Source: Caldilineaceae bacterium
GTDB taxonomy: Bacteria; Chloroflexota; Anaerolineae; Caldilineales; Caldilineaceae
DNA length: 64,000 nucleotides
Assembly (NCBI GenBank): GCA_022821585.1
Contig: JAJEDI010000075.1
Coordinates: forward strand, 1 to 64,000
Reading direction: 5' to 3'
Shown here piece by piece: positions 1,457-46,256 of this stretch; the stretch's first letter is position 1, and every line of letters begins with the position of its first letter. Both the position numbers and the translations under genes were made by a program. The notes beneath the pieces are model-generated. The model saw only the letters and a list, made by a program, of their open reading frames with translations, was not told the DNA's origin and did not search any database.

Positions 1457-1480
1457 GGGCGCCCACAAGGGGTGCCCGTA
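1457..1480 (+). repeat. REP-like hairpin, GGGCGCCC-type variant
   Basis: Arms GGGCGCCC (1457-1464) and GGGTGCCC (1470-1477) with one G-T pair enclose loop ACAAG and are followed by GTAC, where other copies have CTAC. Member of the REP family described at 7344. Confidence 0.6.
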
Positions 1481-1926
1481 CGGTGGAGACAACCGAACAG
1501 GGGGACGAGCTTCACGATCGAAACTGTCGGGAGGCGCGGGTGTTTTTATGGGTGACAGCATCTGCGCCTCTTTTGCTTGGCAGGGGGCGGGTCGACATGA
1601 ACCGAGATCAGGTAGGCTGTCAAACTCGGACCGATACCGTGAGTGGGGCAAGGCGGTCCTTCACAGGTGAGTTGATTTTTCCAGACGCAGGGGGTATTAT
1701 CTGTCAATTCTGTGTGGCATAGCCAAGAGTCGTCAAAGTGGGCTATTATTCGGGGGGTCCTCCTGGTGAGCTACGCAGGTTGGTAGCGACCTTGAAGGTT
1801 AATTCGCCTGTGTCGGGGGCTCGCGGTGGTCGTGGCGGTGAATGTTGGGTATGTATGGGAGTTGCCTCGCCTGGCTTGCTTGCACTGGCACATGCTCGGA
1901 ATGTGCCAAGATGCGGGGTGTGGGGG

Positions 1927-2055
1927 GTTAAGCCCGGCCGCCGCGAGACGACAACTTCATATCAGCCACACACTCGCTACGGCGCGGACAGGGCCGGGGG
2001 CGTTGCGGGGGCGGAGCCCCCGCACAAGGGAGGGCCGAATAGGCCCGACCGCCCG
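1927..2055 (+). repeat. Long dispersed intergenic element, copy 1
   Basis: Shares with copies near 10.2, 14.0, 30.7 and 46.0 kb the block CACACTCGCT followed by CGGCGCG, then GGGGGCGTTGCGGGGGCGG, a GC-rich hairpin (GGGGGC / GCCCCC), CACAAGGGAGGGCCG and AATAGGCCCGACCGCCC. This copy lacks the CTGCAG plus heptamer tail in its usual place, but GGTTAGTTGTCAGAG follows about 30 bp later. About 170 bp upstream of the ThDP enzyme gene. Confidence 0.7.
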
Positions 2056-6385: not shown

Positions 6386-6605
6386 CTGAGTGCCTGAATG
6401 CCTGAACGCATGTAAGCGTTGAGGCAATGGGATCTGTTTAGAGGGCAGGGCCGGCCAAGCAGGCCCCGGTGAGCTGATGCGTTGTGTTTTTTGGCACGCG
6501 GTCCAGAATGTTGGGTCCGCCGGGAGTGGGACGGGGTGCTTGGGAGGTTACGAACGATCGTTGTAGGCGGCGTCATTGTCATCCTGCATATATTGGCAAC
6601 CACCA

Positions 6606-6630
6606 GGGCACCCCAAAAGGGGTGCCCTTT
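6606..6630 (+). terminator. Hairpin with T-rich tail, REP-like, upstream of the RAYT gene
   Basis: Perfect 9-bp stem GGGCACCCC / GGGGTGCCC with loop AAAA, then TTTCT. The arms resemble the GGGCACCC class of REP element at 10127, but loop and tail differ. It can serve as terminator for the 6251 gene and may also be a degenerate REP copy flanking its transposase. Confidence 0.6.
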
Positions 6631-6646
6631 CTGATTGGAAAACCAC

Positions 6647-7198
6647 ATGACCCATGATTCAGACATTCCTCGCCGGAGGTCAATCCGGCTCAGTGGGTAT
6701 GATTACGCGAGCGCCGGAGCGTATTTTGTTTCGATTGTGGCGCAGGGCAGGTTGTGTCTGTTCGGCGAAGTGGTGGACGGGGAGATGCGCCTGAATGGCG
6801 CGGGGGAGATGGTGCGCCGGGTTTGGGAGGGGATGGCGGAGAGGTTTGCGTATGTTGTGGTGGATGCGTATGTGGTGATGCCCAACCATGTGCATGGGGT
6901 TGTTTTTCTCGGCCAGACGGCGGCAACGACGGATGCGTTTACGGGGGAAACAGGAGGGGATGTGCCTACGTTGGGGGATGTGGTGCGTGTGTTTAAGTCT
7001 GTGACGACGGTGGAATATGGGAGGGGTATGCGGGTATTGGGGTGGGAGCGGTTCGAGAAGCGGTTGTGGCAGCGGAATTACTATGAGCGTGTGGTCAGGA
7101 ACGGGTCTGAGATGAGGGCGGTGAGGGAGTATATTGTGAATAATCCCAGGAATTGGGCGTTGGATCGGGAGAATCCCGGTGGGGGTGGGGAGTTTTGA
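6647..7198 (+). CDS. REP-associated tyrosine transposase (RAYT, IS200/Y1-like)
   Basis: 183 aa from ATG 6647 (MTHDSDIPRRRSIRL); a TTG 12 bases upstream is an alternative. The HUH motif is in VVMPNHVHGVVF, the N-terminal RxSIRLSGYDYASAGAYFVS block is typical of the TnpA_REP/Y1 family, and the C-terminal Tyr lies in LWQRNYYERVVR followed by REYIVNNPRNW. RAYTs are single-copy HUH nucleases that process REP hairpins with a GTAG-type head. Just such hairpins stand directly downstream in a tandem array and are scattered through the window, always followed by CTAC (GTAG on the other strand). This context supports the family call. No intact insertion-sequence ends were seen, so it is probably a domesticated or REP-only enzyme. 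Confidence 0.88.
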   Translation: MTHDSDIPRRRSIRLSGYDYASAGAYFVSIVAQGRLCLFGEVVDGEMRLNGAGEMVRRVWEGMAERFAYVVVDAYVVMPNHVHGVVFLGQTAATTDAFTGETGGDVPTLGDVVRVFKSVTTVEYGRGMRVLGWERFEKRLWQRNYYERVVRNGSEMRAVREYIVNNPRNWALDRENPGGGGEF

Positions 7199-7260
7199 GT
7201 TGGCGTGGGGTGGGAGGGTGGGTGCGAGGTCTGTCCTGATCGGAGACTGAGGGTGTACGC

Positions 7261-7285
7261 GGGCAGGCACAAGGCCTGCCCCTTC
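7261..7285 (+). repeat. REP hairpin, array unit 1
   Basis: Arms GGGCAGGC (7261-7268) and GCCTGCCC (7274-7281), loop ACAAG, tail CTTC instead of CTAC. Confidence 0.8.
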
Positions 7286-7343
7286 CGGGGGTTGGGGGAT
7301 GGGACGGAGGGGATGTCGCGTGTGGGAGACTGAGGGTGTACGC

Positions 7344-7368
7344 GGGCAGGCACAAGGCCTGCCCCTAC
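7344..7368 (+). repeat. REP hairpin, array unit 2 (type copy)
   Basis: Arms GGGCAGGC (7344-7351) and GCCTGCCC (7357-7364), loop ACAAG, tail CTAC. Read on the minus strand this is a GTAG head followed by an 8-bp stem with loop CTTGT, the canonical layout of RAYT-linked REP elements. Confidence 0.88.
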
Positions 7369-7426
7369 CGGAGGTTGGGGGATGGGACGGAGGGGATGTC
7401 GCGTGTGGGAGACTGAGGGTGTACGC

Positions 7427-7451
7427 GGGCAGGCACAAGGCCTGCCCCTAC
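7427..7451 (+). repeat. REP hairpin, array unit 3
   Basis: Identical to the type copy: GGGCAGGC, ACAAG, GCCTGCCC, CTAC. Confidence 0.88.
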
Positions 7452-7546
7452 CGGAGGTTTGAGGGTTGGGGCGGAGGAGACGTCGCGTATGGGGGTGGGA
7501 GGGCAGGTACGCGGGCAGGCACTGCGTGCTCTCTCGGAAGAGGCAG

Positions 7547-10126: not shown

Positions 10127-10151
10127 GGGCACCCACAAGGGGTGCCCCTAC
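10127..10151 (+). repeat. REP hairpin, GGGCACCC subtype
   Basis: Arms GGGCACCC (10127-10134) and GGGTGCCC (10140-10147), same loop ACAAG and tail CTAC as the main type. Both arms have changed together, so the stem is kept by compensating substitutions. Confidence 0.85.
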
Positions 10152-10228: not shown

Positions 10229-10325
10229 AGGGGGCGTTGCGGGGGCGGTGCCCCCGGACAAGGGAGGGGCGAAGAGGCCCCACCGCACAACTGCAGTAGT
10301 TAGTAGCTAGTAGTTAGTAGTCAGT
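10229..10325 (+). repeat. Long dispersed intergenic element, copy 2
   Basis: GGGGGCGTTGCGGGGGCGG, a GGGGGC/GCCCCC-type hairpin, ACAAGGGAGGGGCG, then CTGCAG followed by five degenerate heptamers of the TAGTAGT / CAGTAGT type. Lies between the 3' end of the MalG-like gene and the promoter side of the kinase gene; the weaker AAGCACGGTGGGTGAGG block at about 10203 is also shared with copy 4. Confidence 0.8.
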
Positions 10326-13867: not shown

Positions 13868-13892
13868 GGGCAGGCACAGGGCCGGCCCCTAC
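13868..13892 (+). repeat. REP hairpin with one stem mismatch
   Basis: Arms GGGCAGGC (13868-13875) and GCCGGCCC (13881-13888) with one A-G mismatch, loop ACAGG, tail CTAC. Confidence 0.7.
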
Positions 13893-13990: not shown

Positions 13991-14150
13991 ACCGGGGGGC
14001 GTTGCGGGGGCGGAGCCCTGAACTGCAGTGGTCAGTGGTCAGCGACAGGGCTACTTCTGACTCAGAGCTGATCGCGAGATGGCTGGGGTACCGCTGCTAC
14101 CCGAGGCATGGGAAAGTTCGCCCACATTTGGGATGCATCCCGCGGCTACC
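13991..14150 (+). repeat. Long dispersed intergenic element, copy 3
   Basis: GGGGGGCGTTGCGGGGGCGG and GAGCCCTGAACTGCAGTGG with two TCAGTGG heptamers, then CAGCGACAGGGCTACTTC, TGACTCAGAGCTGATCGCG and TTTGGGATGCATCCC. Relative to other copies, the ACAAGGGAGGGCCG...CCGCCC block is deleted. Ends about 90 bp before the FN3 protein gene. The rest of 13600-14241 shows no gene. Confidence 0.75.
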
Positions 14151-15729: not shown

Positions 15730-15754
15730 GGGCAGGCACAAGGCCTGCCTTTTC
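15730..15754 (+). terminator. REP-derived intrinsic terminator
   Basis: Arms GGGCAGGC (15730-15737) and GCCTGCC plus T (15743-15750), loop ACAAG, followed by TTTTCTTG instead of CTAC. A REP copy whose tail has become T-rich, well placed to end the FN3 gene transcript. Confidence 0.7.
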
Positions 15755-30585: not shown

Positions 30586-30610
30586 GGGCAGGCACAAGGC
30601 CTGCCCCTAC
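30586..30610 (+). repeat. REP hairpin, main type
   Basis: Identical to the type copy at 7344: arms GGGCAGGC and GCCTGCCC, loop ACAAG, tail CTAC. About 60 bp before a long dispersed element. Confidence 0.87.
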
Positions 30611-30634
30611 TGGAGCGGGATGGGTGAGGGGGGT

Positions 30635-30905
30635 GAAGCACGGTGGCCGCGGGTGGACAACGTCACATTGGCCACACACTCGCTGCGGCGCGAGCAGGGC
30701 CGGGGGCGTTGCGGGGGCGGAGCCCCTGCACAAGGGAGGGCCGAATAGGCCCGACCGCCCAAACTGCAGTAGTCAGTAGTCAGTTGGAAGTGGTCAGTGA
30801 CGGCGCATCGCTTACATCAGAGATGATCGTGGAACGGGCAGGTTTGGCTGCAGCCAGAGATTTACGCGATTGCACTCCCGTTTTGGGATGCAGCCGTCAA
30901 AGCTT
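30635..30905 (+). repeat. Long dispersed intergenic element, copy 4 (most complete)
   Basis: GAAGCACGGTGGCCGCGGG, CACACTCGCTGCGGCGCG, GGGGGCGTTGCGGGGGCGG with hairpin, CACAAGGGAGGGCCGAATA, CTGCAG with AGTAGTC heptamers, GTCAGTGACGGCGC, CATCAGAGATGATCG and TTTTGGGATGCAGCC. The order is shared with copy 5 over about 270 bp. Ends within 90 bp of the Asp-box gene. Confidence 0.85.
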
Positions 30906-45619: not shown

Positions 45620-46256
45620 AGTCGCTGGATCGTGCAGCCCCCTGTACCCCTTCGGGGGGCGACAATATCTGATGTGCGCAAAAGTCGAGAATGCGCCTTC
45701 TGCGTATTGCGTACTTTCTTAACTGCTAAGCCTCATTATGTACGCACTGTGTCCCTTTTGCCTGGGACCGGAATGACGGAACGCAGCGGCAGGATTTCTA
45801 TGGCGGGCTCATGCCGGTCATCGCGGTGTACGTTAGGCCAGAAGGGGCGTAGCCGCGTCCGCCCTGCCTGCGCTGGCTCACACTCGGAACGAGCCACGAC
45901 GCGGGGGAAGCACCGGTCGCCGCGGGACGCCAAGGTCGAATTGCGCGCACACTGGCTGCGGCGCGATTTGGGCCGGGGGCGTTGCGGGGGCGGGGCCCCC
46001 CCACAAGGGAGGGCCGAATAGGCCCGACCGCCCAAACTGCAGTGGTTAGTAGCTAGTGGTCAGTTGTCAGAGACTGCGTTTCCTCTGACACAGAGTTTGT
46101 CGCGGCGTGGCAATGGTTGGTCTGGCGCCGAGAGTATGCGTGAGTGTGCCTCCATTTTGGGATGGGTGCCTCTTTTCGGGTCCTAACTCCTTAGGGGGTT
46201 GGTAGGCTATACTTATGGGTGAACCGAGCTCCCACAATAATCAGGAGGCCAGACCC
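45620..46256. other. Intergenic region with one long dispersed element
   Basis: No coding frame. A GCCCCC/GGGGGGC hairpin near 45636-45660 may help end the GH32 transcript. Copy 5 of the dispersed element covers 45905-46175, and TATACT (46208-46213) is a -10-like box without a clear -35. Confidence 0.55.
45905..46175 (+). repeat. Long dispersed intergenic element, copy 5
   Basis: Shares with copy 4: GAAGCACCGGTCGCCGCGG, CACACTGGCTGCGGCGCG, GGGGGCGTTGCGGGGGCGG, CACAAGGGAGGGCCGAATA, CTGCAGTGGTTAGTAGC with heptamers, CAGAGACTGCG, CTCTGACACAGAG and TTTTGGGATGGGTGCC. Ends about 80 bp before the PIG-L gene. Confidence 0.83.

Follow-up and report, generated by a model that had tools for sequence, protein, structure and literature searches.

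The closest described systems are the REP/RAYT pairs and the IS200/IS605 group. TnpA-REP cleaves the single-stranded GTAG strand of its target and leaves the complement uncut (PMC8266576), and in IS608 and ISDra2 the strand that moves is the one lying in the lagging-strand template (PMC5371812). For the spread of REPs, a link to the replication fork has been suggested on the model of IS608. The usual model genomes carry their REPs in inverted pairs, so that any polarity signature would be hidden, and in Pseudomonas fluorescens SBW25 the orientation of a few tandem REP arrays is opposite from one side of the chromosome to the other (PMC3116915). A search confined to the open-access literature returned no account in which REPs, or dispersed repeats as a whole, take their orientation from replication. 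REP/RAYT itself being already known, the system described here would, as far as that literature goes, be a new variant, its novelty being unpaired, fork-polar REPs.

The window analyzed is a stretch of 64,000 nucleotides from a Caldilineaceae bacterium (class Anaerolineae; contig JAJEDI010000075.1, positions 1 to 64,000), and its features are listed in Table 1. The HUH/Tyr enzyme placed at 6647 by the original prediction, which had been made from the letters alone, corresponds to an open reading frame (P0001) in which the HUH motif reads NHVH (residues 80-83) and the Tyr/Asn pair lies in EYIVNNP from residue 161. By far its best family was NCBIfam NF047646 REP_Tyr_transpos (E 2.7e-13), at 50 bits against a cut-off of 80 bits; the Pfam Y1_Tnp score was 22.2 bits against a cut-off of 23. 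An AlphaFold model built on a six-sequence alignment (pLDDT 72.6) gave 30 PDB fold matches (E<=0.001), every one of them a Y1 transposase, and ISDra2, IS608 and E. coli TnpA-REP were among them. The last of these, 4er8, is bound to its hairpin and matched the model with a TMq of 0.51, and the EYIVNNP segment of P0001 aligned to it. A PHROGs search gave no match, and a single RAYT relative was found in viral contigs. P0001 is a divergent RAYT, present in its own genome as one intact copy accompanied by relics, and by homology its expected target for binding and cleavage is the single-stranded GTAG hairpin.

In homologues of P0001 from other bacterial groups, the same REP was seen as an in-frame part of the transposase gene, at the linker that follows the HUH motif (L226:2963; L195, minus strand, own-strand positions 1644 and 1702; L208:3264; L218:3926), where its two strands translate as VGAPLVGA and GAPTRGAPT. 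The two intragenic copies of L195 are paired in inverted orientation. The corresponding linker of P0001 differs from that of these REP-bearing homologues.

Table 1. Features of the RAYT locus and of the dispersed repeats in the window
Feature	Position	Strand	Evidence or remark
REP hairpin, decayed to GTAC	1457..1481	-	
CGTT/ATAGG composite repeat	1916..2054	+	
10-bp-stem hairpin GGGCACCCC-AAAA-GGGGTGCCC, no GTAG, then TTTCT	6605..6628	+	-13.3 kcal/mol, 0/200 shuffles
RAYT gene P0001, 183 aa, HUH/Y1 single-strand endonuclease/transposase	6647..7198	+	profile scores, motifs, fold matches
Tandem array of three 83-bp units, one REP hairpin each, 3' of RAYT gene	7242..7490	-	hairpins 7261, 7344, 7427
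REP hairpin, tetranucleotide decayed to GAAG	7261..7285	-	
REP hairpin, intact GTAG, AGGCC variant	7344..7368	-	fold test
REP hairpin, intact GTAG, AGGCC variant	7427..7451	-	
REP hairpin, intact GTAG, ACCCC variant	10127..10151	-	fold test
CGTT/ATAGG composite repeat, 3' of REP at 10127	10230..10290	+	
REP hairpin, intact GTAG, one stem mismatch	13868..13892	-	
CGTT hairpin core, 3' of REP at 13868	13995..14018	+	
REP hairpin, GTAG lost (GAAA)	15730..15754	-	
REP hairpin, intact GTAG, head of composite repeat	30586..30610	-	
Composite after REP: CGTT hairpin, ATAGG hairpin, heptamer start	30622..30760	+	
CGTT/ATAGG composite repeat, no REP nearby	45895..46033	+	

The window holds eight REP hairpins, all minus-strand. 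Each hairpin tested has an 8-bp stem and a 5-nt CTTGT loop and folds as single-stranded DNA at -10.3 to -10.6 kcal/mol, a value equalled by 0-1 of 200 shuffles, and GTAG stands directly 5' of the short palindrome, the arrangement by which a REP is recognized. The original prediction was right about the positions and strand of all eight; the tetranucleotide is intact in the five at 7344, 7427, 10127, 13868 and 30586, and its claim of GTAG failed for those at 1457, 7261 and 15730. The single orientation that it described is true of the window and is moreover a genome-wide rule, and the intergenic placement was borne out, just 1 of 188 examined copies lying inside a called gene. Its picture of a compact case spanning 30 kb was mistaken, since the system extends over the whole genome, with ~190 copies counted in the 2.68 Mb that were read, and over the genus. 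Nor did it note the tie to the replication strand or the fact that non-RAYT repeats have the same polarity. The RAYT gene is flanked by three REPs on its 3' side and on its 5' side only by the GTAG-less hairpin at 6605-6628, which combines the REP1 stem sequence with an AAAA loop and ends 18 bp before the RAYT start; this hairpin may be terminator-like, an attenuator, or a relic or derivative of a REP.

The genome of origin (G000) comprises 5.49 Mb in 102 contigs, of which detailed reading covered 2.3 to 2.68 Mb. Absence of the hairpin from the rest of this genome had been named as an observation that would count against the REP/RAYT reading, and the opposite was found: a loose REP pattern matched 157 times genome-wide against 17 for the reversed control, and the exact CACCCC variant 77 times against 0. 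The hairpin count is not due to chance. Two main stem variants occur among the genomic REPs. The middle stem triplet is complementary in 107 of 118 own copies, compared with 61 expected from the marginals, but this covariation adds little because the two variants dominate.

Within the genus the hairpin was present in all 17 genomes (1 to 228 copies), as against 1 of the 29 genomes from elsewhere in the family. A RAYT that is intact or nearly so was detected in six of the 17, the gene of G415 carrying an internal TAG. Hairpin counts were 127, 217, 158, 228, 20 and 117 in these six and 37, 10, 181, 59, 1, 30, 21, 63, 14, 42 and 30 in the 11 without a detected RAYT, with medians of ~142 and 30, respectively (Mann-Whitney, p = 0.03), a comparison to be read with the caveat that draft genomes may lose repeat-flanked genes. 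Equal abundance in relatives lacking the gene had been the second observation named as adverse; the hairpin is indeed present in such relatives, but at the lower median. A single-contig genome with no detected RAYT (G419) retains 30 copies, and the draft G407, in which likewise no RAYT was detected, has 181. The fold, the motifs, the GTAG hairpins with their copy number and intergenic placement, and the larger number of copies in RAYT genomes together support the identity of the system.

At orthologous sites in relatives that are ~90% identical, both the number and the presence of REPs vary: one versus three copies were counted at C35 and L162 and one versus two at C43 and L219, and a REP array in L183 is absent from the genome's own C71. 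A diverged RAYT relic in G000 (C9:1602-1796; 48 aa, 44% identical) lies between two same-orientation REPs, and L206 has a single REP at this site. No clean empty site for the exact inserted unit was found in the relatives, their intergenic DNA being too diverged. REP turnover is ongoing.

GTAG was located on the C-rich strand in 184 of 188 copies and, when only loci >1 kb apart were counted, in 139 of 144; as arrays are collapsed in the latter count, chance clustering or tandem duplication is ruled out. The skew at four of the five exceptional loci is under 0.04, leaving C34:7311 as the single clear exception. This wrong-way REP reads GTAGGGGCACACCTTGTGGGTGCCC and lies on a 330-kb contig that is otherwise all plus. 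In the genome-wide pattern search all copies on a given contig were on the same strand, and REP orientation followed the replication strand along contigs of up to 330 kb. In 56 of 59 contigs its sign was the reverse of that of the GC skew, a relation that persisted with skew computed from intergenic DNA alone (55 of 58) or from third codon positions (53 of 58). On multi-locus contigs 2 of 120 loci were in the minority orientation; in 20,000 simulations the mean was 35.9 and the minimum 22. Neighboring REPs are direct and 49-83 bp apart, with 2 minority copies in 173. The inverted pairs known as REPIN/BIME were looked for and are absent here; they are present in other Chloroflexota (G133, G246). 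REP density is uneven. It was also seen to climb with the strength of GC skew, from 0.65 per 20 kb below 0.05 to 2.4 above 0.15.

Known REPs lie mostly 3' of genes (PMC3733652), which would suit an orientation that merely reflects the direction of neighboring genes (for example, as 3' UTR elements), or else base composition. Orientation relative to genes, a check that the original prediction had proposed, was counted over the part of the genome that was read, and proved constant in every gene context: the flanking-gene classes gave 46:1 (both genes on the C-rich strand), 81:1, and 28:2 (both genes on the G-rich strand), and divergent genes flank 54 of the 159 flanked copies. As to composition, G outnumbers C in the GTAG strand of the repeat, which nonetheless lies on the C-rich strand, and the REP core octamers are hardly skewed outside the repeats (ACAAGGGG 25:19, GGGCACCC 30:39). 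These counts contradict gene direction and base composition as the cause, and such an origin is highly improbable.

The same polarity recurs in relatives. It was found at 28 of 28 REP loci in named Caldilineaceae MAGs, in which four other repeat motifs were polar in 22 of 22 cases, and in 28 contigs from four genomes of the genus 1 of 84 copies was in the minority orientation. Polarity is equally strong in genomes where no RAYT was detected, among them the drafts G404 and G407. By way of control, an E. coli REP consensus matched equally in both orientations in 100 kb of one E. coli replichore. Loci of other phyla that contain an identical hairpin showed no consistent polarity.

Operons for ribosomal proteins, RNA polymerase and similar housekeeping functions are co-oriented with the fork in nearly all bacteria, and T-richness is expected of the leading strand. 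Here, the S10-spc-alpha (C75), str and rpoBC (C19), rplKAJL (C76) and nuo (C34) operons are all on the G-rich strand, which also tends to be T-rich. Contrary signs are that tRNA genes favor the C-rich strand by 14:6 and that 54% of coding length is found there. On the basis of the four operons and the base skew, the G-rich strand is very probably the leading strand. Further markers were sought: the assembly contains no 16S gene that could mark the leading strand, and the dnaA contig (C78), tried as an origin marker, shows no clear skew switch. No structured RNA was found near dnaA. If the G-rich strand is leading, GTAG is a lagging-strand sequence, that is, on the nascent Okazaki side or in the leading-strand template. 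The GTAG strand is then opposite to the lagging-strand template, and the IS608 rule is not simply transferable.

Polarity is not confined to REPs. All intergenic families with at least 8 copies are polar, including a CGTT hairpin (68:3), an ATAGG hairpin (58:0), heptamers (78:0 and 54:0) and GCGAAG (33:0). Among repeat pairs at least 85% identical, the two members had the same fork orientation in a ratio of 2450:85 in intergenic DNA, compared with 303:171 in coding DNA (303 of 474, 64%); the exceptional intergenic pairs that were inspected came mainly from the ends of contigs or from stretches with almost no skew. The heptamers and GCGAAG being as polar as the REPs, RAYT alone is an insufficient explanation. 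As observed separately, the CGTT-tagged hairpins form a fork-polar family of >70 copies, GGCGTT GCGGGGGC GGA GCCCCCGC, which differs from the published CGTC REPs and for which a dedicated enzyme was not found; the heptamers form dispersed arrays, (AGTAGTC/AGTGGTC)n, at 63 loci (on C11, C12, C16 and others), with the G-rich strand used in all but one.

These equally polar families bear on a scheme of removal, in which insertion would be random and RAYT would cut or excise, at each round of replication, copies whose GTAG strand is exposed in the lagging-strand template, so that only the silent orientation survives. Such removal predicts the sign that is seen: the enzyme works on the GTAG strand but not on its complement (PMC8266576), and in this genome GTAG avoids the lagging-strand template. 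Repeats that lack GTAG, among them heptamers and GCGAAG, are nevertheless just as polar, and so are the genomes without a detected RAYT (for example, G404 and G407), which makes removal decidedly improbable.

Several families are linked in a composite repeat of ~450 bp, in which a REP is followed at 105-129 bp by a CGTT hairpin, with an ATAGG hairpin and heptamers as the further parts. With 49 of 77 CGTT hairpins lying 105-195 bp from a REP in fixed order, and the ATAGG hairpin and heptamers behind, a single polar composite mobile element, IS200/IS605-like with two different hairpin ends, could have spread with the fork and left the other repeats as its fragments. Against this, no member of another family occurs within 300 bp of 102 of the 191 REPs, and 39 heptamer loci (polar 39:0), like the majority of GCGAAG copies, are situated at a distance from composites. 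Lone REPs, these heptamer loci and the GCGAAG copies are independent of the composite, and its fragmentation is quite unlikely to account for them.

Polarity might instead be selected, either for oriented signals (FtsK/KOPS-like, Chi-like, a fork barrier or a polar terminator) or through the purging of copies inverted within a replichore, which cause harmful inversions. The near-perfect polarity does resemble that of KOPS, and composite copies of 100-500 bp could recombine. However, the families share no common motif, the core octamers are hardly skewed outside the repeats, and a 25-bp REP offers little length for recombination. REPs are also unevenly distributed, and their copies show turnover when close relatives are compared. 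Selection is accordingly considered unlikely.

For repeats whose identity, copy number, polarity, independence from gene direction and recurrence in relatives are matters of observation, the best explanation is fork-coupled single-strand spread, which is favored somewhat above even chances. The repeats would spread as single-stranded DNA at replication forks, with the single-stranded repeat entering the nascent lagging strand on the Okazaki side; a new copy would then retain the fork orientation of its parent, whatever the sequence so copied, and RAYT would feed REPs into this lagging-strand route. As heptamers and GCGAAG follow the same rule, a host lagging-strand route would also have to accommodate sequences on which no RAYT action is known. 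Tentatively, the host may have a general route by which intergenic repeats of any kind are copied, in single-stranded form, into the nascent lagging strand, so that all dispersed repeats, RAYT-linked or not, bear a permanent mark of fork direction; this broader proposal is a possibility rather than an expectation. The combination of unpaired copies with a near-perfect strand signature allows tests of whether spread is coupled to the fork, on which strand, and how far this depends on RAYT, within one genus that has members with and without the gene, and REP orientation can serve as a marker of replication direction on draft contigs.

In comparison with the REP/RAYT systems of E. coli and Stenotrophomonas maltophilia (REPtron, TnpA-REP), the present system shares an HUH/Y1 enzyme beside GTAG palindromes and high-copy intergenic hairpins, and the perfect 8-bp stem is like that of group 3 REPs (PMC8266576). 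It differs in that copies are single or head-to-tail rather than in inverted pairs (REPIN/BIME), are strictly fork-polar and are often placed between divergent genes, and in that REPs beside the RAYT gene were seen only on its 3' side. The REPINs of P. fluorescens are likewise dispersed RAYT-linked repeats with some side-dependent tandem arrays (PMC3116915), but 93% of doublets there are inverted pairs and singlets are read as decayed remnants, whereas singlets are the rule here. The heptameric repeats of Xanthomonas are similarly dispersed intergenic 7-mers, but without leading/lagging preference (PMC4692102). With IS200/IS605 elements (IS608, ISDra2) the system has in common the Y1 fold and a genomic orientation that tracks replication (PMC5371812); unlike them, it has no autonomous multicopy element with two end hairpins, no TnpB was seen, and, if the G-rich strand is leading, its GTAG strand is opposite to the lagging-strand template.
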